DNA of 25,422 nt from a virus. The notes under the pieces are model-generated. The model ran no database searches. It had not been told where the DNA came from and worked only from the letters and a program-made list of their open reading frames with translations. Made by a program: the position numbers and the translations under genes. Where the stretch lies: IMG/VR virus record IMGVR_UViG_3300010233_000231, positions 368-25,789 of that record. One strand, written 5' to 3'. Below are positions 1,028-25,354 of the stretch, piece after piece; position 1 is the stretch's first letter, and each line of letters begins with the position of its first letter.

Positions 1028-1558
1028 ATGGAAATCTATGGAACAGAGGTAATTCCTTTACAGGGATTATCCTCTTGTTCTGTGGATGCAGTATTCCAAG
1101 AACTAGACGGCTACTCAACTTATATTTTTAAACAGCCAGACATTGTTTGGTGTCCCTATCGGCAGATTATTATGCCTTACAGAACACTGAAGCTTGTCAT
1201 GCAAATGCCAGAACCAATTGTACGCAAACACGTCCTCTACAATCCAAGGTACATTCGTTGTATCTATGCTCATGCACCTTTAATCAAGGACACTGAGTGT
1301 GAGGAAGAAGCCTACGAGAAGCAACTGCAAATGCAGCTCATGAAGGAGAGCAATCTTCCTATGATAGATGAGTTTGGTATGTATGTGTATATGCGTTTAG
1401 AGATTAGCGAGGAACCCTTCGATTTAGATTTGCGGATTACTGAACACACAGAACGAGAAAAATTCTACAATTATGATTCATGCTATAGTAAACCCTCACT
1501 TACCGGAGATAGGGTATCAGAGGATAACCTTCGGCCAAGCTTGGTCCATACTGTCTAA
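1028..1558 (+). CDS. Hypothetical protein upstream of polA, 176 aa
   Basis: The frame is open from 962, but the ATG at 1028 (MEIYGTEV) avoids overlap with the previous gene and gives normal spacing, so it is preferred. The protein is aromatic-rich and acidic towards the end, with stretches such as PDIVWCPYRQ and EMYVYMRL-like text around residue 120. No known domain is recognised. Its last 86 bases overlap the start of polA in another frame, so the two are probably translated together. The overlap is long for this phage, so either this stop or the polA start may be placed slightly wrong. Confidence 0.55.
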   Translation: MEIYGTEVIPLQGLSSCSVDAVFQELDGYSTYIFKQPDIVWCPYRQIIMPYRTLKLVMQMPEPIVRKHVLYNPRYIRCIYAHAPLIKDTECEEEAYEKQLQMQLMKESNLPMIDEFGMYVYMRLEISEEPFDLDLRITEHTEREKFYNYDSCYSKPSLTGDRVSEDNLRPSLVHTV

Positions 1559-3186
1559 ACAGCGTGAGTTAGAATTTGATATTGAAACACCTGTTACTGA
1601 ATCTGTAGCTGACCGTAGAGCTACTGTATATTCATTTGGTATACCATGTGGCGGTGACCAATTTGTGTTTGACTTGAAGTATATGACACCCTCACAAATA
1701 GCTATGTTGAATAGTATTATCGAGAGTACATCAGTCACAAAGTTGATTCACAACGCTGCATTTGAGTATGCTACGCTTTACGTCTCAGGAATTATCATGG
1801 AGAATGTGTATGATACTATGCTAGGAGAAATGATCCTAGATAGTGGTAACAACACTGTTGGTTATGGTTTGGATGATACCGTATACCGCAGATTCTTTGT
1901 GATTGTATCTAAGATGCTGCAGAAGTCTTTTGCAGAAGGAATCCTTTCTGTAGATCAAATAGAGTACGCTGCTACTGACGTTGCCTGGTTAGGCTACATA
2001 CGTAGGCAGCAAATGCTAGAACTACATAGATGGGACTTAGAATGGGTAGCTGCACTAGAAATGGAAGCAGTACTCGGTTATGCAGAGATAACTGCAGAAG
2101 GTATGCTACTTGATAGAGAAAAGTGGATAGAGAATGAGAAACTTGCTGAACCTGTTGTGGCTGATGTTTTACGCAATCTTAATGCATGGGTACAGGAAGA
2201 ACCATTCCGTAGCTGGTTTATCAAGAAAGACTACCTGCTCATAGAGGACAGGTGTGTTATCAATTGGAACTCTCATCCAACAGTTCGTGCACTGTTTGCA
2301 CATTACTTCCCATTTCTAAAGGGAGCAACTCAACCTATACTCAAACAGTACATCAAATCAACACTGGAGGAATTCCCAGAAGGTACACTAGGTACATACG
2401 TATTACTTGCTTACATAGAGAAGCGGTATGATGTTGTGCTAGAGTATTTCCTCAGGAAAGATTACAATTTCATGTATGCACAAGGCTATATGCTACCTGC
2501 AGGACACATTAGTATCAATTGGAACTCTGTTGACCAGGTATTACCTCTTGGACAAATATTGCACCCTAAACTAAAGAGTTTAGACGCTGATAATATTGCC
2601 AAGACGTCTCACCCGTTCTTCATTGATTTAACTGATTACAAGGATGCCCTGAAGCTTATCAGTACCTATGGACAAGCTTTCTTTAAGCATGTAGATAGTG
2701 ATGGTAAGGTGCATAGCAAGTTTACACAGATTGTGTCTACTGGCCGTGTATCTAGTAAAGAGCCAAATATGCAGAATATCCCTGCTAAAAAAGCAGTGGG
2801 TTTACGCTACCGTAATGCATTCATACCACATGATCCTAATTGGGATATGGTTGATAGTGATTATGCTTCACAAGAGCTGGTTGCTATTGCTGAATTGTCC
2901 AAGGACCCGGTGTGGTTAAAGGCACTACAAGAAGGTAGAGATTTGCATAGTGTGTGTGCTGAACTTGTATTCAAGGATAAGTGGAAGAATGCACAAGACA
3001 CTACATGCCACTACTACGAGAAACAGTGGCGTCATATTGTAGATAACACTTGGTTGTCTATGGATGAATACCAAGCACGTCATCAGCCCGCTGGTTACGT
3101 GTATGAGGTTCGTAAAGGTAAGTGTAAGTGCAAACGCCACGGTGTTCTCAGAGAGGGTATTAAGTCCATCAATTTCGGTCTTGCGT
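1473..3186 (+). CDS. polA: DNA polymerase family A, exon 1 (3'-5' exonuclease and polymerase N-terminal part)
   Basis: This is the first exon of a replicative family A DNA polymerase of 753 residues after splicing. The proofreading domain shows Exo I DIETP (D36, E38), Exo II HNAAFEY (N94, with E98 where Asp is usual) and Exo III YAATD (Y165, D169). Polymerase motif A is DYASQEL with the metal-binding Asp at 463. Motif B starts at R560 and runs KSINFGLA up to residue 571, where the exon stops one base into codon 572. Read without splicing, the frame ends at 3242 after a short foreign tail, and the product would lack motif C. The ATG at 1473 is needed to keep DIETP. The exon 3' end is set by pairing of 3181-3186 with 3849-3854, with U·G at the splice site. 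Confidence 0.93.
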
Positions 3187-3213
3187 TAATAGAAAATACT
3201 GTATATTTACAGC

Positions 3214-3789
3214 ATGAAATTAGAATTAGAAAAATTGCATGAATTAGGGTTAACTCCTAAACAAGCAGCACAAAAACTTGGTATAAAGTATTGTACTTTA
3301 CTTCCTAACTGGAAAAAAGCTAATCTACCATTACAAGGAAGTGGCGGACAAAACCGTATTATTAATCATAATCCTTTTGAAAAATGGGATGAATGGGCAC
3401 AGTATTGGTTTGGTTACATTCTTGGGGATGGTAATGTATCTAGTGAGAAGTATAGTATAGCTATTTATAGCCAAGATCTTGATCATTTACAGCACTATGC
3501 TGATTGGTTAAAGCTCAAGGTACATAGAGCAGGTAAAAAGGGTACTGTATTATTTGGTAATAAGGAAACACACAAATGGTTAATTTCTAAAGGCATTACA
3601 CCTAACAAATCTCTCACTGTGCAACTAACAATTTCATTTACATCACATATTTTACGTGGTTTATTTGACGCCGATGGTTGTGCTAGACGGTTAGGTAACC
3701 CCAATAAGATTACAAGTGGTTCCTTACCCTTACTAAAGCAAGTACAAGATTATTTAGAGTTACATCAAATTGATTCTGTTATTCTTTAA
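3214..3789 (+). CDS. LAGLIDADG homing endonuclease in the polA intron, probably C-terminally truncated
   Basis: This 191-residue protein lies wholly in the P1 loop of the polA intron. Residues 10-40 look like a helix-turn-helix (LTPKQAAQKLGIKYCTL). The two LAGLIDADG helices are at 65-73 (WFGYILGDG) and 145-156 (HILRGLFDADGC), each with its acidic metal ligand. Enzymes of this type cut an intronless allele so that the intron is copied in. The protein stops at HQIDSVIL, where relatives carry further beta strands and a conserved end of the type LYxxSxIYLxRKY. That end is present just downstream in another frame (3782-3838), so an internal deletion with frameshift is likely and the enzyme may be inactive. 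Confidence 0.85.
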   Translation: MKLELEKLHELGLTPKQAAQKLGIKYCTLLPNWKKANLPLQGSGGQNRIINHNPFEKWDEWAQYWFGYILGDGNVSSEKYSIAIYSQDLDHLQHYADWLKLKVHRAGKKGTVLFGNKETHKWLISKGITPNKSLTVQLTISFTSHILRGLFDADGCARRLGNPNKITSGSLPLLKQVQDYLELHQIDSVIL

Positions 3790-3838
3790 CTTGTTATATT
3801 CTAATTCTACAATTTATATGTCTCGTAAGTATATTAAA
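3782..3838 (+). pseudogene. Out-of-frame C-terminal remnant of the LAGLIDADG endonuclease
   Basis: Frame 2 of this stretch reads FFNLLYSNSTIYMSRKYIK. This closely fits the usual end of intron LAGLIDADG proteins, where a Phe-x-x-x-Leu-Tyr helix is followed by Ser-x-Ile-Tyr-Leu-x-Arg-Lys-Tyr. The active frame ends at 3789 in frame 1, so the remnant is not translated with it. The segment expected between the two parts is missing. The match to the family ending is from memory of the family and not from an alignment. Confidence 0.6.
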
Positions 3839-4076
3839 GTAAGCCATAGCGCAAATAAAATTGGGTGAATTGCTGGGAATCTGAAATGACAATCAGCAGC
3901 CAAGCTAAGTAGGGATACTTAGAAGGTTCAACGACTAATAGCATACTACCAGAACGGTAATGAAGCTAACACGAGCGCCCAACACTTATAGTGAAATAAG
4001 TGATGATATAGTCTGAACAACTACGAAATTTAAGTAGTTGACATGGTAGATAAAGAGCTACCATATAAACAAATTG

Positions 4077-4624
4077 ATGGCATGAGTGAATTTAAGTTGG
4101 CAGCAACTATGAGAACCTCTGTACCGGAAGCAAAGGCTTTGATTGACCAATACTTTAGAGAGTTCCCTAGCATCAAGAGTGTGCTTAATTACTTTGAATG
4201 GTTTGGTATTACCTACGGTTACATCATGACACCTGCACCTTTCTTTAGAAAGAGGTGGTTTCCTGATTGGAACAAGTATGGTTTATCCTACTATGCAGAG
4301 GAGCATTTAATGGGTGTGCGTAGAGACAACAAGCTTGCAGAAATTGGTAGACAATCTAAGAATGCACCTATACAGGGCGGTTCTGCGGACTCAGCCAAGC
4401 TTTCTCTTGTGATGATACGCATGTACATTAATGACAACAAATTACGTGATAGGGTCAAGATAATTATGCAAGTGCATGACCAAAATACTACCTCGGCACG
4501 TCGCGATTATGCACCACAATGGTCCAATGAACTTAGTAGCATCATGGTTGAAGCTGGTAAGTGGTTGGTGCCATCTGGTTTATTAGGCTGTGAGACAACA
4601 GTGTCTCCAGTATGGACAAAGTAA
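4077..4624 (+). CDS. polA: DNA polymerase family A, exon 2 (fingers and palm, motif C)
   Basis: Joining T3186 to A4077 gives TAT GGC ATG AGT, restoring the motif B sequence NFGLAYGMSEF. Exons of 1714 and 548 bases sum to a multiple of three. The exon then shows NAPIQGGSADSAK (the usual NAPIQGxAAD region) and motif C QVHDQ with D706. The residue after that Asp is Gln where most family members have Glu. A frame with an ATG at 4043 is open upstream, but that ATG lies in an intron hairpin and is not a start. The gene ends with TAA at 4622-4624, 25 bases before the next gene. Confidence 0.92.
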
Positions 4625-10842: not shown

Positions 10843-11668
10843 TAATTTAGTAGCCACTTTAGAGAGCAATCTCTATCGAACACTTCTTTAATTGCTGGGA
10901 ACTCCTTATAGGACAATCAGCAGCTAAGCTTAAACTATTATTATGAAGAATCCCCAACTTGAAATTGGTACTGTGTACGGTCAATGGACTGTGCTCTCTT
11001 TTGTTAAGGCGATGAGTCAAACAGATAGACATACAGGTTACATGTGTCAGTGTACATGTGGTATCATTCGTAAGGTGCAAGGAAGCTTACTCAAAACAGG
11101 ACGCAGTAAATCTTGTGGGTGTACTACACAACAACGATTAGTTGCTAGTGGTACCAAACCTATTTATCAATCCATTATCTACAGTATTTATCGAAATTAT
11201 GATACACAAGCCTGTGAAAGAAATTACACCTTCTCCCTATCACTAGAAGAATTTAGTAAGTTAATAGCACAGAATTGTCATTACTGCAATGATACTCCCT
11301 CTAATACATTCAAGTCCGGTGCCAGAAGGTATCATGGGCTAGAATCATTTAGGTATAACGGTATAGATAGGCTTGATAATACCAAAGGGTATACATTAGA
11401 GAATTGTGTGTCATGTTGTAAGAAATGCAACTTTGCAAAAGGTAAATTTTCATATACTGAGTGGCTTCTCTGGGTACAGAAAGTATACCATAATCTTAAT
11501 AGTTTAGGAAAGTTCAACGACTAGCTCGAAAGAGCGTAGAGTACAAGTTAATGGTACTCGAAATGGGAAGCATCCTCTTATGGGATGAAGATATAGTCTG
11601 ATCTGTATAGTAATATGCAGCTGCTTGTGAAAGCGGGTTTGATTTTACGCATCAAATTGAACACATTG
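10843..11668 (+). ncRNA. Group I self-splicing intron in the Sak4-like gene
   Basis: This 826-base intron has the same core words as the polA intron: P AATTGCTGGGAA (near 10890-10901), Q AATCAGCAGCTAAGC (near 10914), R GTTCAACGACTA (ending at 11523) and S GATATAGTCTGATC (near 11589-11602). P7 pairs GACTA 11519-11523 with TAGTC 11594-11598. P1 is the short hairpin 10839-10856, with U10842·G10853 at the splice site. P2 is a perfect 6-base-pair stem with a GCAA loop (10860-10875). After S come a stem with a GUAA loop (11603-11620), a stem with a GUGA loop (11621-11636) and TTTGAT/ATCAAA. The last intron base is G. The nuclease gene lies between Q and R, in the P6 loop. Confidence 0.9.
10943..11524 (+). 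CDS. HNH homing endonuclease in the Sak4 intron
   Basis: The protein has 193 residues. The N-terminal half has the Tyr-Gly-x-Trp-Thr-Val segment (12-17) followed by a Cys cluster (C35, C37, C39, C58, C60), common in phage intron nucleases. The HNH core has CHYC (C112, C115), then GIDRLDNTKGY (140-150) and the second Cys pair region CVSCCKKCN (155-163), with Lys following. It probably nicks or cuts the intronless Sak4 allele so that the intron spreads. It sits between the Q and R elements of the intron, and its stop codon (TAG 11522-11524) falls in the R/P7 sequence, so gene and ribozyme share bases. It appears intact. Confidence 0.9.
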   Translation: MKNPQLEIGTVYGQWTVLSFVKAMSQTDRHTGYMCQCTCGIIRKVQGSLLKTGRSKSCGCTTQQRLVASGTKPIYQSIIYSIYRNYDTQACERNYTFSLSLEEFSKLIAQNCHYCNDTPSNTFKSGARRYHGLESFRYNGIDRLDNTKGYTLENCVSCCKKCNFAKGKFSYTEWLLWVQKVYHNLNSLGKFND

Positions 11669-14563: not shown

Positions 14564-14775
14564 CTCGTCTTCAACTCCTCCAACAACTAGAAGAAAAGTA
14601 CATGGGTAAATTGGTTAGGCATACTACGTATGTTGGTACTAATTTTTATGCACGTATAGAGAACATCAATTGTGAAACTGACGGTGGTGATGACTTTATT
14701 GTTATTGCACAAATAGGTTCCAAAAGAGTTGAACTATCTAGGGAGAAGTTTGAGGAAAATACAACTGTGCTATAA
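14551..14775 (+). CDS. Small hypothetical protein, 74 aa
   Basis: The protein is soluble, with a helical start (LTRLQLLQQLEEKY) followed by short beta-like text. No family is recognised. It overlaps the primase end by 13 bases and shares one base with the rIIA-like gene (TAATG), so it sits in a translationally coupled chain. The tight overlaps on both sides support that it is a real gene. Confidence 0.6.
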   Translation: METLTRLQLLQQLEEKYMGKLVRHTTYVGTNFYARIENINCETDGGDDFIVIAQIGSKRVELSREKFEENTTVL

Positions 14776-17540
14776 TGGCTATCTACGAAGAAGAACAATC
14801 AATGATGGGTAGTGAGGTTGTGGCCAAGGAAATCGAAGAAGGTGCAGAAGGCATGATGATTGACTTGGTGCAAAAGTATCAGTATGCGTATCCTATTAAG
14901 TCAGCGGTGAGAGAGCTGCTGTCTAATGCTGTGGATGCCGTAACCGAGAAACAGAACGCAATTAAAATCCTTACTGGCAAAGCAAAAGCCGAAGACTTTT
15001 ACATTGACCGTGACGGTGCACTGTACAAGGATAGTAAGTGGGACCCCACCTATTATCCACTCAACAAACTCTCATCTAATGACACTGTTACAATTACATA
15101 CAAAGTATCTGGTGATAAGCGGGATCAATGTATCATTGAAGATAACGGTGTTGGTTTATGGGGCAAAAGGTTACTAGGTTATTTCCGCCTAGGGTATTCA
15201 ACTAAAAGGGGAAGTGTATCTGCTCTTGGTAAGTATGGTATTGGTGCCAAATCTGCGTTAAGCACAGGTATCAATAGCTATATTGTAGAGAGTAGATATG
15301 ATGGCAAACTGCTGCGTTTTCATGTATTTGATTATGCATATCAAGCCATCATACCACCGGTAGATTTAGATACAGGTAAAGAGAACCCATTCTTCACTAT
15401 CACTGATCGTGATGGTAAGGAAACTAGGATTCACTATACCTACACAGACAGAGAGAATGGTTTGACAGTTACATTGGAATGTAAGCAGCACAACAAGATT
15501 CAATACCTTGATGCTGTTAAGCAACAGATGATGTACTTTCCAACTATTCAGCTTGTACTAGAAGAAGCTAATGGTAGGAGAGAAATCATACCTACTGCTG
15601 CTGAGATTCTGTATGAGGATGAGAACATTATCCTGTCTGATAATAACTACTACAATAAACCTCACATGTTGATTAACCATGTAAACTACGGCTATATCAA
15701 CTTTGATGAGATTGAATTGGAGCAGCGTTATGGTAACATTGGTATCAAGGTACAAGTAGAAGAGGTTACCATCAATCCCTCTAGAGAAAGTGTAATCTGG
15801 GATGATAAGACGAGAGCAGTTGTATTACAGCGTTACAAGGACGTAGTGAATGCAGCTACTAGACTCTTGAATCAATCATTACAGACTGACAACTTCTTGG
15901 ATTGGATTTATATAGTGAATAGTATTGATAAGGGTAGTGTGTCTCAACGTAATAATATTATTAGCCGCTTGAGTGAGATTGCTAACATCAAGGAACTGGA
16001 AATACACTATACACTTCCTGGAGGTGAGAACTTGAAGTACAGTGATGTAGCTAGTTGCTATGCTATGAGACTAATAGAAGTAGAACAGTACGAGCGTGCA
16101 GGTAACATTGTTAACCGTATCAAGAGAACACGTGTGTCTGCTGATATACTTACACCGGGTATTCCAGTGTATATCAAAACACAGCCTGGTGCAAGTAGCA
16201 ACAAGAAGGATAAGTACCTGTTTAAAAAGCATGGTAGTTCATTCATTATTCTTGAGCACTTTTCACATGCATACAATTACTCTTGGTTCACTGAACGTGA
16301 GTATAGTCGTGTACCTAATGAAAAGGAGATGCAGTTTGCATTTGAACTACTAGAGAATCACATGGATAGTTCTCAGTATGCAGAACAATTCTCTGTGTAT
16401 GAGCTAGTGGAGCCTGATGACGATTCTACTGATGATGACGAGGATCTAATCGAAGCTGCTAGTGAGGATAAAGAAGCTATCTCTGCTGAAGTGATACGTA
16501 CTAAGAAGGAGACCATTACCATGGGACGTCCTGTAAGTGATTGCAATCTTTATACTCATGCAAAACAACGTATACTTCCATTTTCTATGTACAATGAGGA
16601 GATACGCGCTTGTGATGTAGAGAAAGCACTTACCTCACCTGAGGTATTCTACTTCAATCAGAATGATGGTGATTACAAGAAAGCTATGTTAGCTATGTGT
16701 ATCACCCATCTTCTTAACGAGGGAGAAAAAGATTCACATGGTGGTAATACACCGCAAGGAGTTAGTACAAAGGTACCTGAATATAAACCAGCATTCTGTA
16801 CTGATAGGGTAATATACCCTAGTCATACACTTGGGTTTTCTCATGATAAGAATGGGTACCTCAATCACGGTAGAGTTTCTTACATCAAGGTAGCTAAGAA
16901 CAACGTCAAGTACTTCAGACAATACAAACACATCTCTTCGTTCTTTGCTGAGCGTAGAGGCAACACAGTGAAAATGAGTACCTCTCTTATTAAATGGAAT
17001 ACAGCCAGGTTACTGGAAAAGAGTATGCATAAGTGTCGTTTTCTGACTAACTTTAGTGGCTTTGATCCAGTGATGGCCAGCGAATACCGTGAGCTTGTAG
17101 GGTACATGAAAAAGTGGTACAGAAAGCTCACTGATATAGATAAACAGGGCTTCAAGTTTACTGATGAAGGTGATATAGATGCATTGGTTGACCACTGTAC
17201 TCGTATCTACTCTTTCCAACGTAAAGTTGCAGAACTAGCATCAGACCCTGCTAATGCACAAGTAATTGCTGATGAAGCTAAAGCTTTGTTTGGTGATGCT
17301 AACATCAATGCAGCACATGGTGCAGATTTATCTATCATCAATAGGATGGAAGCGCTAGTAGATTATTGTGAACCACTAATCATGCTCAATGCAATTCCAC
17401 AACTTACTGGTGATACAGTATCTACTGAATGGCCGTATTTAACAGGTATGGTGAATACAGTTAGATTGACAGATGACCTAGAACAGGAAATCAAGGATTT
17501 TATACAATTAAAAACAAAGCAGCATGTCAACAATGATTAG
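14775..17540 (+). CDS. rIIA: rIIA-like GHKL-ATPase protein
   Basis: The protein has 921 residues and an N-terminal GHKL (Hsp90/MutL-type) ATPase fold. The N box is RELLSNAVDAV (46-56, E47 and N51), the G1 box is EDNGVGL (122-128) and the G2 box is GKYGIGAKS (152-160). An acidic low-complexity stretch (PDDDSTDDDEDL) lies near residues 548-559. The C-terminal half has no recognised fold. rIIA and rIIB of T4 are membrane-associated proteins best known for overcoming exclusion by the lambda Rex system. Homologues occur as a pair in many large phages, including crAss-like ones. The next gene is the rIIB-like partner and overlaps by 17 bases, supporting the call. The protein is longer than T4 rIIA (725 residues). 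Confidence 0.85.
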   Translation: MAIYEEEQSMMGSEVVAKEIEEGAEGMMIDLVQKYQYAYPIKSAVRELLSNAVDAVTEKQNAIKILTGKAKAEDFYIDRDGALYKDSKWDPTYYPLNKLSSNDTVTITYKVSGDKRDQCIIEDNGVGLWGKRLLGYFRLGYSTKRGSVSALGKYGIGAKSALSTGINSYIVESRYDGKLLRFHVFDYAYQAIIPPVDLDTGKENPFFTITDRDGKETRIHYTYTDRENGLTVTLECKQHNKIQYLDAVKQQMMYFPTIQLVLEEANGRREIIPTAAEILYEDENIILSDNNYYNKPHMLINHVNYGYINFDEIELEQRYGNIGIKVQVEEVTINPSRESVIWDDKTRAVVLQRYKDVVNAATRLLNQSLQTDNFLDWIYIVNSIDKGSVSQRNNIISRLSEIANIKELEIHYTLPGGENLKYSDVASCYAMRLIEVEQYERAGNIVNRIKRTRVSADILTPGIPVYIKTQPGASSNKKDKYLFKKHGSSFIILEHFSHAYNYSWFTEREYSRVPNEKEMQFAFELLENHMDSSQYAEQFSVYELVEPDDDSTDDDEDLIEAASEDKEAISAEVIRTKKETITMGRPVSDCNLYTHAKQRILPFSMYNEEIRACDVEKALTSPEVFYFNQNDGDYKKAMLAMCITHLLNEGEKDSHGGNTPQGVSTKVPEYKPAFCTDRVIYPSHTLGFSHDKNGYLNHGRVSYIKVAKNNVKYFRQYKHISSFFAERRGNTVKMSTSLIKWNTARLLEKSMHKCRFLTNFSGFDPVMASEYRELVGYMKKWYRKLTDIDKQGFKFTDEGDIDALVDHCTRIYSFQRKVAELASDPANAQVIADEAKALFGDANINAAHGADLSIINRMEALVDYCEPLIMLNAIPQLTGDTVSTEWPYLTGMVNTVRLTDDLEQEIKDFIQLKTKQHVNND

Positions 17541-20593: not shown

Positions 20594-21100
20594 CTAGATA
20601 GCTACGTACTTGGTTCCTTCAATGAATTGTTTACCATTATACAGTGTCAAGAGATCCTCAGTGGATTTACCAAATGTCTTTTGGAAGTGTGGAGTATCGC
20701 TGAATTTCCAATCTCCACCCCATTCCCAGCCGTATCTTTTGAAGATGGCTACCACTTCTTGCCAGTCACTAATACCGTCCTTATCGAAGTCTAGGTGTTC
20801 ATCCCATGATGCTTCTTCCAGTGTACCATTACCATCTCTGTCAAGCAACATCACAATATCTACAGCTAAGCCATAGTTATGGTATGATTGACCTCCACGG
20901 GCTTTGGTAACTACTTTACCTGGTTTACTACGGCCTTGAGCAAAGATTTCATTCTGCTCGTTAAAGGTGCGTAGTACGTAGGCAAACCTACAGCCTACTT
21001 TACCACTTAATACTTCGCAAATCTCTGCATAGATTTGGCGTAATTGTGCGCGTAACTTGGGGTGACCTGTCTCGATTCTTTCGAGTGTGATTTTATCCAT
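20594..21100 (-). CDS. M15-family endolysin (L-alanyl-D-glutamate or D,D-peptidase) with two calcium-type loops
   Basis: The frame is open from 21181, but the ATG at 21100 (MDKITLERIETG) is the natural start. The protein has 168 residues. The zinc site is H74 and D81 in SYHNYGLAVDI and H138 in TPHFQ, as in VanY/CwlK/T5 Lys peptidases that cut peptidoglycan stem peptides. Between them lie two EF-hand-like loops, DRDGNGTLEE (87-96) and DFDKDGISDWQE (104-115), spaced like a calcium pair. T5 endolysin is known to need calcium at a similar loop, so calcium control is plausible here. It has no signal peptide, so it needs a holin, and a candidate lies upstream at 22155-22424. Confidence 0.9.
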   Translation of the reverse strand: MDKITLERIETGHPKLRAQLRQIYAEICEVLSGKVGCRFAYVLRTFNEQNEIFAQGRSKPGKVVTKARGGQSYHNYGLAVDIVMLLDRDGNGTLEEASWDEHLDFDKDGISDWQEVVAIFKRYGWEWGGDWKFSDTPHFQKTFGKSTEDLLTLYNGKQFIEGTKYVAI

Positions 21101-21116
21101 TGTGTTATATTTAATG

Positions 21117-21404
21117 TTAGAAATACTCTGCTTCCGGTTCTTTCCTTGGCCAGCGGTCAACAGGACATTTACTATCCTCATGAACCACTTTGCTGGCTAG
21201 TGGGCATCCACATTGACCACAGTAAAAAGTGTTATCAGCTTGATTGAGCATATTCATCATTAACTCACCTGCTGCATTCATCTGCAGTTTATGTGGGCAA
21301 CTATCACACACAGAAAGTCGCTTAGAAGCCATCTCTTTCTGTTCAGGTGTAATGTTCCCTGAAACAACTCTATACCAAGCTGTAGCGATGTCTGTGAGTT
21401 TCAT
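21117..21404 (-). CDS. Zinc-ribbon-like small protein, 95 aa
   Basis: Cysteines occur as CDSC (33-36), CGQCGC (62-67) and a further Cys near residue 80 (KCPVDRW), a pattern fitting a zinc ribbon or rubredoxin-like knuckle. The first 30 residues are helical (MKLTDIATAWYRVVSG). No membrane segment is present. It shares one base (TAATG) with the upstream spanin-like gene and lies 16 bases before the endolysin start. Short Cys-rich proteins of this type occur near tail and lysis genes of Bacteroidota phages, but their role is unknown to me. Confidence 0.65.
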   Translation of the reverse strand: MKLTDIATAWYRVVSGNITPEQKEMASKRLSVCDSCPHKLQMNAAGELMMNMLNQADNTFYCGQCGCPLASKVVHEDSKCPVDRWPRKEPEAEYF

Positions 21405-22192
21405 TAGAATCTGATTAGTGTGCGTGTGATACTTACTCCTACATACATACTACCCGGATTGGGGTAGAGCAGTACTCCGCCCTGTACACCAATAGCCCAT
21501 TTCTTGGGTCTAGTGATGGTAGGCACTTTGACGAATTGTGCACCTTTCTCCGAGATGAATGGGTTAGCATGTACAATGGTCACGTAGGAATTTTCCTTAC
21601 GGAATGGCCATGTACCTGTCTTCCTACTGTCAAAGAAGTACTTCACAGAGTCAATTACGATTAGTGATAGTGAGCCTTTCATCTTCATAGGATCAGAAGA
21701 TACAGTGGCTGTAGCCGCATACCAGTGATTGTTGAATCTACCGGTTAATGTGTGAGCTGAGCTATCTGGTAGGTATTTGGTGTCGCCTGGTAAGTATGCA
21801 GTGTCTTGTGGTAAGTAGATAGTATCACGCAGTCTAGTGGATAATACACCTTCAAGCTTGCCTATCTTAATCTTGTACTTGTCGTTGATGGCATCTATGT
21901 TGTGTAGCTCCTTTACTAAATCATCAGTGATACCAGAGAGCGCCTGTAGTTGTGTGGCTTTGGTGCTATCTCTAGCTATATACACTTTCAGTTTGCTGCT
22001 GTCATCAGCCATTTTAGCACGAACCTCTTGCAATTCCTTGAGAGTGGTTTCATGTGCTTTATTATTGCACGCATCTAGTAGTATACATACCAACGCTAAA
22101 GCCACTATAATCATGGCTAGTGTGGTTAAGAAGCCCATTATTGGGTATCTATTCTTATTCCACAGGTTTATCAGAGGATTGAGTAGGTTCAT
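21404..22192 (-). CDS. Membrane-anchored coiled-coil protein, spanin-like
   Basis: The start at 22192 (MNLLNPLINLW) is chosen from an open frame beginning at 22246. The protein has 262 residues, with a single membrane segment at about 19-38 and a charged coiled coil at about 46-118. Three 7-residue repeats of the form D-T-x-Y-L-P-x follow at 123-143. The C-terminus is beta-rich and ends TRTLIRF, with alternating hydrophobics like an outer-membrane strand. An inner-membrane anchor plus periplasmic coiled coil next to a holin and endolysin fits an Rz-type spanin. No separate o-spanin lipoprotein is seen in this cassette. A structural or tail-linked role is also possible. It overlaps the holin gene by 38 bases. 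Confidence 0.6.
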   Translation of the reverse strand: MNLLNPLINLWNKNRYPIMGFLTTLAMIIVALALVCILLDACNNKAHETTLKELQEVRAKMADDSSKLKVYIARDSTKATQLQALSGITDDLVKELHNIDAINDKYKIKIGKLEGVLSTRLRDTIYLPQDTAYLPGDTKYLPDSSAHTLTGRFNNHWYAATATVSSDPMKMKGSLSLIVIDSVKYFFDSRKTGTWPFRKENSYVTIVHANPFISEKGAQFVKVPTITRPKKWAIGVQGGVLLYPNPGSMYVGVSITRTLIRF

Positions 22193-22424
22193 TAGGCTTG
22201 CGTTTGGCAAACTTCTCAGCGCTAATGGTAACCCAACCACCACCAATGATTGCTACAGTAGCTTCAATACAGAGAATGATAATCTCTCTATTCTCTAGTG
22301 CAATCTTGCGGGTTAGAACGTACCATATAATCGCAATGAAGTTTATGGTTAGTGCAAATACAACGACTCTCCTAGAAGATTCAGGAGAGTCGCTGCGAAT
22401 TAGATTGAGTAGAAATGTTTTCAT
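22155..22424 (-). CDS. Holin candidate, two membrane segments, 89 aa
   Basis: The ATG at 22424 (MKTFLLNLIRS) is preferred over the longer open frame from 22502, which overlaps the upstream gene. Two hydrophobic segments, at about 20-37 and 48-67, are joined by a short charged loop (TRKIALENRE). The C-terminus is Lys-rich then polar. The size, two spans and position in front of an endolysin fit a holin that opens the inner membrane at lysis. Holins share little sequence, so the call rests on topology and context. A perfect hairpin lies in its early codons (22364-22392). Confidence 0.7.
   Translation of the reverse strand: MKTFLLNLIRSDSPESSRRVVVFALTINFIAIIWYVLTRKIALENREIIILCIEATVAIIGGGWVTISAEKFAKRKPNEPTQSSDKPVE
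22364..22392 (-). repeat. Perfect inverted repeat in the early holin codons
   Basis: CGACTCTCCT (22364-22373) is matched exactly by AGGAGAGTCG (22383-22392) around a 9-base loop. In the minus-strand mRNA this forms a 10-base-pair, GC-rich hairpin over codons about 11-20 of the holin candidate, where the protein reads SDSPESSRRV. It may slow translation or shield the mRNA, or it may be chance. Confidence 0.5.
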
Positions 22425-23294: not shown

Positions 23295-23930
23295 CTAGTA
23301 ATATTTCTTGTGCCGTGCAAAAATCTCCACTAATTTGTCCACGGAACTGTTGATGATGAATGTATCCTCTTGTGTTGGTTCCTCCTTTGTGTTGGAGGCT
23401 ATTGAACAATAGAACACTTTAGAGTGATCTTTAGTGGTCATCAGGTGACAGATATAAGAGGATTTGATGCCTTGCATTTCGTAGATAGTCTTGAGCTTAG
23501 AGGGTTCCATTTCTGCCGTCTTCAGCAGTACGAATCCCTTCATAAGCATCTCAGAGTATATATCATAGTATGGTGCGTCTGCTCTCCAACGCTGAATCTC
23601 TTCACGGATCTCAGACATACCACATTCTTCAATAAGCTCTTCGTATTGACAGGTAACATAGAGATTCTTACCCACGGCCAGTATACCAGCACTATCCTCT
23701 CCCATGAACACCATCACTCTAGGATAGAAAGTAGCCTTGGTTATGTGACGCATGATGCGGAACACCTCAGCTATCTCCTTAGAGTTCTGAGCCATATCTA
23801 CTTTAGCTTCCTTTCTGCGCCTGCGGTAGTCAATGTACTTACTAACGAGTAAAGTAGTTAGACCACCACCTAGTAGTTCTGACCAAGAAAATGAGTTCTC
23901 CATGTGTATGATGTTAGGGGGCAGGTTCAT
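23295..23930 (-). CDS. Hypothetical protein with possible N-terminal membrane anchor, 211 aa
   Basis: The ATG at 23930 overlaps the upstream stop (ATGA), and a second in-frame ATG at 23903 (MENSFSWSELL) is equally possible and would give 202 residues. A short hydrophobic glycine-containing stretch (ELLGGGLTTLLVSKYI) is followed by a basic cluster (YRRRRKEAK), which fits an N-terminal anchor with the body in the cytoplasm. The body is mixed alpha/beta with no motif I recognise. It is encoded among membrane and lysis genes of the late operon. Confidence 0.6.
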   Translation of the reverse strand: MNLPPNIIHMENSFSWSELLGGGLTTLLVSKYIDYRRRRKEAKVDMAQNSKEIAEVFRIMRHITKATFYPRVMVFMGEDSAGILAVGKNLYVTCQYEELIEECGMSEIREEIQRWRADAPYYDIYSEMLMKGFVLLKTAEMEPSKLKTIYEMQGIKSSYICHLMTTKDHSKVFYCSIASNTKEEPTQEDTFIINSSVDKLVEIFARHKKYY

Positions 23931-24310
23931 GGCTTATACATTAGTTTCCACGTTGACTCGAACACTATAAACCATAGCAAAACTAAGGTACAGCCGTCTA
24001 AAATTACTCCATATATAACAATATTTGATAAATGGTCTGTACCAAAAAGTGGCTTATAGAGATAGAGTAGTGTGGTAGTTATAATAGCAGCAAACTTTAC
24101 CAGCTTAGCTATATGCCAAGGATCCATTCGCATCCAACCTAACCAAGGTTTCATCAGTGTTCCACTACGCATAGGATTCCACACATCAGGGTTCTTGTGC
24201 TTGAAGATACTTTTATGCAGACGAAAGCAGACGGTATCCATGAACGCATCTGCTATTGCTGCTATACACCAGGTGATTAGAAACATAGCATATAGTATTA
24301 GTATCCGCAA
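23927..24310 (-). CDS. Three-span membrane protein, 127 aa
   Basis: Hydrophobic segments lie at about residues 2-20, 68-88 and 96-118, joined by a Trp/Pro/His-rich loop (NPDVWNPMRSG, WLGWMRMDPWH). No family motif is recognised. It overlaps the lipoprotein gene by 13 bases and the next gene by 4, so the three genes are probably translated together. It could be a second holin-like protein or a partner of the lipoprotein. Neither role is shown by sequence alone. Confidence 0.65.
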   Translation of the reverse strand: MRILILYAMFLITWCIAAIADAFMDTVCFRLHKSIFKHKNPDVWNPMRSGTLMKPWLGWMRMDPWHIAKLVKFAAIITTTLLYLYKPLFGTDHLSNIVIYGVILDGCTLVLLWFIVFESTWKLMYKP

Positions 24311-24633
24311 TAAGCATTATCTGTGCCGTCTGATAAGTAGGAATAGGTTGTATCACTAGTAGATTGTGCTACATGGAAGTACCCACCAGCAACACCTTCA
24401 CGGGTCCAATCCTTGGTTAAAGGCACTGCAGACCTGATAACTGTGTTGTAAACGGTTACTCCTGCGCAATCCAGCCAATATTCGCCTGAATAATAGTAAA
24501 AGCCATTGATAGGCAATACCACTGTAGAAACGCCTGTTTTGGCGGTGTCAATAGGCTTAGTGCTTATACTGCTTGTTCTTTCACATCCTAATACAAGGAC
24601 TAGAATAAGTGCGTAAACGATTTGCTTTTTCAT
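24298..24633 (-). CDS. Lipoprotein carrying a copy of the tail fibre C-terminal domain
   Basis: The frame is open from 24744, but the ATG at 24633 starts a clear type II signal peptide: MKK, a hydrophobic core and lipobox VLGC with Cys17. The mature part has a short polar linker (18-43), then a domain (45-111) that matches residues 165-236 of the tail protein encoded just upstream. Shared text includes EYW-DC-GVT, IRS-VPLT (VRS-VPLT in the tail protein), WTR and the ending NA-CGY. C56 and C109 line up with tail C176 and C234. It should be exported and lipidated, while the tail copy is assembled in the virion. Receptor masking against superinfection, as with T5 Llp, is a reasonable idea. The gene starts 10 bases after the tail stop. 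Confidence 0.85.
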   Translation of the reverse strand: MKKQIVYALILVLVLGCERTSSISTKPIDTAKTGVSTVVLPINGFYYYSGEYWLDCAGVTVYNTVIRSAVPLTKDWTREGVAGGYFHVAQSTSDTTYSYLSDGTDNAYCGY

Positions 24634-24643
24634 AATTAGAGTT

Positions 24644-25354
24644 TTAATATCCACAAGATGCATTTTCTGTATCATCCGATATATAAGTGTAAGCCGTACT
24701 ACCTGATACCCCTGTAATACGAAGGTAGTTAGCTCCACTACCACCAGAGAATGGATCCCACCTTGTCCATTCTAAAGTTAAAGGTACAGTAGATCTAACT
24801 ATTTCCCCATAACTAGTTACACCACTACAATCAGCCCAATATTCAGCATCATAGTAGTAATAAGTAGGCGTACAAGTATCTAAGGCTAGTATGACGTTGT
24901 TTGATGTATTGGTCATTTGGAAAGGCCCAATACCAGCTTCGTAATACCAAAGCCCACCACCCCAAAGAGCAGTAGGTACATAAGGCACATATACACCACC
25001 TGTTAGTAAATACAGTGTAGAGCCCGTACCAAGGGTAGCAGAACTGCTATAAAGAGTGTTTGAACAAGTTCCCCAACTAGCACAAGCATTTGCTCTGGTA
25101 GCCCATCCTGAAGTGATCAGCTTACCACATTCATAGTAAACAGTATGAGCGTACATTGGTGTACAAGTATGGCAGTAGTTATACCAATCGCTATGCCTAG
25201 CATCACCAGTTGTTTTTGGTAATGAGGGGGAATAAGGATTAAGTGCTACATACGCACCGGTACGAGCCGTATAAAGGCTAAAGTTGGACACGGAAATGCC
25301 CAACTCTGTTCTGATCATACTTGATGATATGGTTCCACTAGACGGTAATGCCAT
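24644..25354 (-). CDS. Tail fibre / receptor-binding protein
   Basis: The protein has 236 residues. The N-terminus MALPSSGTISSSMIRTELG is a form I associate with the N-termini of tail fibre proteins, probably the attachment end. Then come two Cys-containing modules, each opening with Cys-Thr-Pro-x-Tyr, at about 64 and 161. The second (161-236) is the domain copied in the lipoprotein gene downstream. Cysteines are at 61, 64, 76, 91, 97, 161, 176 and 234. The body is rich in Ser, Thr, Gly and Tyr, as expected for a beta-structured tip. It starts within the end of the upstream coiled-coil gene (17-base overlap), in line with a tail module on the minus strand. Confidence 0.75.
   Translation of the reverse strand: MALPSSGTISSSMIRTELGISVSNFSLYTARTGAYVALNPYSPSLPKTTGDARHSDWYNYCHTCTPMYAHTVYYECGKLITSGWATRANACASWGTCSNTLYSSSATLGTGSTLYLLTGGVYVPYVPTALWGGGLWYYEAGIGPFQMTNTSNNVILALDTCTPTYYYYDAEYWADCSGVTSYGEIVRSTVPLTLEWTRWDPFSGGSGANYLRITGVSGSTAYTYISDDTENASCGY

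Follow-up and report, generated by a model that had tools for sequence, protein, structure and literature searches.

The DNA analysed here, referred to as the window, is a stretch of 25,422 nucleotides that corresponds to positions 368 to 25,789 of the IMG/VR record IMGVR_UViG_3300010233_000231, a virus record of 26,455 bases. Towards its end the minus strand carries, in order, a fibre-type gene, a lipoprotein gene, the gene of a 127-aa membrane protein, several small genes and the gene of an M15-peptidase endolysin (Table 1). Three parts make up the lipoprotein: a lipobox-bearing signal peptide, a spacer of 27 residues and a single domain of the fibre-tip type. Its precursor begins with MKKQIVYALILVL followed by VLG-C, and the KK of the n-region, the hydrophobic core, the VLGC lipobox and Cys17 make up a signal of the SPII type, as judged from sequence and lipobox pattern, which is what the first-pass annotation had claimed. 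The interval 24298-24860, which that annotation had given for the lipoprotein, does contain it, but spans two genes and also takes in most of the C-terminal domain of the fibre.

Table 1. Features of the fibre and lipoprotein region, in window coordinates
Feature	Position	Strand	Basis or remark
Lipoprotein gene, 111 aa	24298..24633	-	intact ORF; ATG at 24633, stop ends at 24298
Signal peptide (type II) with lipobox cysteine, MKKQIVYALILVLVLG-C, residues 1-17	24583..24633	-	sequence, lipobox pattern match
Lipoprotein spacer, residues 18-44, ERTSSISTKPIDTAKTGVSTVVLPING, 9/27 Ser/Thr	24502..24582	-	sequence
Fibre-tip-type domain of lipoprotein, residues 45-111, cysteines 56 and 109	24301..24501	-	E 3e-21; 28 invariant columns in 3 sequences
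Gap of 10 nt, fibre stop to lipoprotein ATG	24634..24643	-	no promoter-like site
Tail-fibre-type protein, 236 aa, N-terminus MALPSSGTIS	24644..25354	-	N-terminal motif at 77 viral loci
Conserved N-terminal (attachment-type) domain of fibre, residues 1-62	25169..25354	-	50-61% identity in relatives
Fibre residues 63-161, middle module	24872..25168	-	23-41% identity in relatives
C-terminal (tip) domain of fibre, residues 165-236, also in lipoprotein	24647..24862	-	alignments
Next gene, 127 aa, at least 2 membrane segments	23927..24310	-	13-nt overlap on the lipoprotein end if it starts at the TTG
Endolysin (M15 peptidase), last of the same-strand gene run	20594..21181	-	64% identity to Riemerella phage lysins

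The fibre and lipoprotein genes have the same GC content. Nothing promoter-like was found in the gap between them with a simple sigma-70 consensus, the only promoter model applied, and since this gap is merely 10 nt long the lipoprotein gene is likely co-transcribed with the fibre and the other tail genes. The pair sits on unbroken sequence, on the near side of a scaffold gap. This gap, a run of 10 N (L003:3791-3800), lies past the window end and is followed by a protein with a C-terminal Peptidase_S74 chaperone domain, whose link to the locus consequently rests on scaffolding.

One domain in two neighbouring proteins

Residues 45-111 of the lipoprotein align with residues 165-236 of the fibre with 34 of 72 positions identical (47%; pairwise blastp, 72 bits, E 3e-21), and the Smith-Waterman score of this pair is 199 while the maximum in 5000 shuffles was 73 (z about 25). 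This confirms the similarity noticed in the first pass, whose counts by eye (21/34 and 11/17 identical, both cysteines, terminal CGY) were exact. At the DNA level there is almost no alignment, only a 38-nt tail. Third codon positions are 38% identical, and 14 of 33 shared residues use the same codon as against 13.7 expected at saturation (Met and Trp left out). Although synonymous sites are saturated, the copies still agree at around 50% of their residues, in both cysteines and in the terminal CGY, and both therefore look as if kept by purifying selection; judging by the codons, they split long ago. A template/variable pair of a diversity-generating retroelement was rejected on the same divergence (about 50% protein identity, saturated codons).

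A recent or broken duplication can be ruled out because synonymous sites are saturated and the ORF is intact. The earlier annotation had named a broken duplication confined to this genome as the finding that would speak against it; the pair was indeed seen in one genome only, but 28 of 68 columns are invariant in the three sequences that carry the domain. It is accordingly very improbable that the lipoprotein is a dead remnant, formed by tandem duplication of the fibre 3' end and joined by chance to a signal peptide. The tandem position and the single genome would fit such an origin, but the intact ORF, the saturated synonymous sites, the invariant columns, the textbook lipobox and the GC content matching that of the fibre largely refute it.

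A scan of viral sequences with a pattern of the N-terminal fibre motif gave 77 loci. Queries with the lipoprotein, with the fibre and with alignments of two sequences returned L004 alone, a relative of the fibre through its N-terminal half. When relatives were aligned over their full length with the window fibre, residues 1-62 were 50-61% identical while C-termini were 10-26% identical, with the exception of L074 (50%). The C-termini of the other fibre relatives are unrelated modules, by eye some of them S74-like. A conserved N-terminus with a swapped C-terminus is the layout expected of a tail adhesin, which makes receptor binding by the window fibre plausible and its C-terminus apparently the exchangeable part. 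The domain had been called "receptor-binding", which is not borne out as stated, as the name rests only on this exchangeability. In L074 and L004 a sheath-like ORF, named by eye, lies within a few kb downstream of the fibre gene.

Among the 77 loci the one further carrier of the tip domain is the fibre of L074 (IMGVR_UViG_3300010885_020237), whose tip is identical to the lipoprotein domain at 36 of 67 positions (54%), both cysteines and the CGY end included. The window fibre tip, the L074 tip and the lipoprotein domain are collinear over the 68 columns compared. The lipoprotein domain and the L074 tip both lack an insertion present in the window fibre tip; the lipoprotein domain exclusively shares 8 sites with the L074 tip and 7 with its own fibre (bootstrap 0.55), so that by sequence the three domains are about equidistant. 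Because the lipoprotein is equally near to a foreign tip (36/67) and to its own fibre (34/72), copying from the latter is not established, and the proposal that it was built from the neighbouring fibre is not borne out. What stands of the idea of one domain both on the virion and lipid-anchored is that a tail-fibre-type protein has it as its tip and the lipoprotein has it too, and that it looks selected in both.

Neither a second copy of the tip domain nor a lipoprotein copy was found in the 93.7-kb L074 record, and when viral and genome contigs were scanned for the domain no carrier besides L074 came up. A lipobox scan of the fibre loci, and of the whole or near-whole records of 13 relatives, detected no other lipoprotein resembling a fibre tip, beside the fibre gene or elsewhere; hits in G001 and L090 were discarded, since the stretch lies within a repetitive tail-type protein. 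A family of repetitive tail-type proteins with a common repeat unit of about 45 residues is found in the L074 record (L090:13611-17524), and a 1759-aa frame of L091 has the unit too. Neither the lipoprotein nor the fibre matched Pfam, PHROGs, NCBIfam or PADLOC, tblastn against a phage collection gave no relatives of either, and a plasmid collection gave none of the lipoprotein. A PDB sequence search yielded only weak antibody matches, which we take as chance, and AlphaFold models were poor (mean pLDDT 51.5 for the fibre, 37.7 for the lipoprotein). The fibre/lipoprotein pairing is thus known from one genome.

Host, cellular location and known exclusion lipoproteins

The endolysin is 63-65% identical to lysins of Riemerella phages and 55% to those of Cellulophaga phages, a resemblance which suggests a host among the Bacteroidota. 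The evidence is only moderate, because lysins are exchanged among phages and a match of 63% was also obtained with a Shigella-labelled record; the record in question is Shigella phage Henu10 (OQ791282.1), whose lysin matches at the Riemerella level (63.3%) and whose host is possibly mislabelled. Surface lipoproteins of Bacteroidota carry two acidic residues following a polar or basic residue near the cysteine, at about +2 to +6 (PMC5080379). We compared the lipoprotein with the signals K-(D/E)2, SDDDD and SDDFE from that work, a rule that applies if the inferred host is correct. No such surface-export signal is present, positions +2 to +6 being ERTSS, and the rule consequently predicts that the lipoprotein probably faces the periplasm. 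A copy of the tip would block the tip's own epitope only at the surface, and the prediction therefore counts against direct occupancy. The claim of the first-pass annotation that the protein occupies the receptor from the host side is not supported as worded, since the same epitope must be reached and the export signal is lacking.

To our knowledge, the Cor-type lipoproteins have not been described as fibre-tip domains. According to PMC9586334, those of T1, N15 and phi80 are likewise small exclusion lipoproteins, exclusion lipoproteins alike occur directly 3' of tail-tip genes, and T5 Llp (lytic conversion lipoprotein) is a small phage lipoprotein whose gene adjoins that of the receptor-binding protein, an adjacency that is paralleled here insofar as the fibre is, as we infer, the receptor-binding protein of the window phage. 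The T5 llp gene differs in being divergent from oad with a promoter of its own, while here both genes are on the same strand with a 10-nt gap. Llp attaches to the receptor on its periplasmic side, at a site other than that of pb5 (PMC9586334). Llp shows no detectable similarity either to pb5 (z -0.2) or to the window lipoprotein (z 0.7). Ltp of phage TP-J34, another exclusion lipoprotein, is composed of a lipid anchor, a Ser-rich spacer and one functional part (PMC3952083), a layout that the window lipoprotein may share, to judge by its sequence, which reads as an anchor, a 27-aa spacer (9 Ser/Thr) and a domain. Ltp differs by its Gram-positive host and by a repeat domain directed against the tape measure protein, and no fibre-tip domain is described for it.

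Possible roles of the lipoprotein

By analogy with T5 Llp and Ltp, the lipoprotein may be a superinfection-exclusion or progeny-protection protein based on a fibre-tip module, a tentative reading whose chances we put at a little under even. The protein would be produced late together with tail proteins and exported via the SPII pathway. With a lipid on Cys17 it would stay in the outer membrane, and its anchored tip domain would there engage the receptor (or a receptor precursor or glycan) recognised by such fibre tips. Further adsorption to the infected cell would then cease and progeny would not be caught on debris. We favour such a role because T5 llp also adjoins a receptor-binding-protein gene; the domain identity well beyond chance, the purifying selection on both copies, the seat of the domain at the exchangeable end of a tail adhesin, the exclusion lipoproteins encoded next to tail-tip genes and the build of Ltp also speak for it. 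Since the gene is situated between tail and lysis genes, protection of progeny from debris fits better than early exclusion. Several observations speak against it: the predicted periplasmic orientation would allow no surface epitope to be reached without another route, the lipoprotein domain is no closer to its own fibre than to a foreign one, no second genome with the pair was found, and the gene, unlike T5 llp, lacks a recognisable promoter in front of it and is part of a tail-to-lysis run. It is a possible but rather doubtful extension that one tip domain is used twice, for adsorption by the virion and, lipid-anchored, for masking the receptor of this phage or of a competitor. A limited literature search, which is no proof of novelty, found no exclusion lipoprotein described as built from a fibre-tip domain. 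If the double use is real, this exclusion lipoprotein would mimic a virion adhesin, unlike Llp with no detectable likeness to the receptor-binding protein; sharing of a domain with a fibre could then predict exclusion lipoproteins and lead to receptors, and the lipoprotein would be a small ready probe for the receptor recognised by the fibre tip. It would also show a route by which a phage gains an exclusion gene, through reuse of an adhesin module.

The same domain could, however, be a general glycan- or envelope-binding module, with the lipoprotein serving lysis as an outer-membrane partner. The lipoprotein gene is the first of a run that leads through genes of membrane proteins to the endolysin, and the ORF at 21404-22246 is inner-spanin-like in its one membrane segment and long predicted periplasmic part. 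The C-termini of L020-type fibres look distantly related in a profile comparison with the tip domain, where the match is weak though collinear (E 0.011, with a probability of only 4%), and the module may be broad. We nevertheless regard a role in lysis as unlikely, given that the closest upstream gene is a fibre and no spanin, and outer lipoproteins of the spanin type are small and are not known to have fibre domains.

Two further explanations, each of which we consider improbable, retain the exclusion function but change its target. Domains at fibre ends often oligomerise, and the tip domain of the lipoprotein might pair with the fibre tips of incoming virions in a mixed oligomer, disabling the fibres and not the receptor. 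A precedent of a kind is Ltp, an exclusion lipoprotein aimed at a phage tail protein, namely the tape measure protein, as cited in PMC3952083. A periplasm-facing anchor would, however, miss intact fibres outside the cell, and the structural models were poor. The domain might also have been taken from the fibre of another phage lineage, so as to block the receptor of a competitor and not that of the phage itself. This would be in accordance with the slightly greater nearness of the lipoprotein to the L074 tip and with the insertion missing in both, but among only three sequences that difference is not significant.

Other genes of the window

The 280-aa protein encoded at 21404-22246 on the minus strand, away from the lipoprotein gene, is possibly spanin-like, with a single membrane segment and weak similarity to DUF6808. 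On the plus strand, a group I intron in the region 3214-4035 (Rfam RF00028, 69.9 bits at 3810-4035) breaks up the DNA polymerase A gene (1473-4624); it contains a LAGLIDADG ORF (3214-3789). In the region 10846-11620 (plus strand) a P-loop ATPase gene seems to be divided by a probable second group I intron, with an ORF at 10943-11524 that by eye is HNH-like; here RF00028 matches at 11383-11620 with 45.5 bits, under the gathering score. A 921-aa GHKL-ATPase protein (14775-17540, plus strand) bears a distant likeness to phage rIIA and has one close relative, with 59% identity, in L005.
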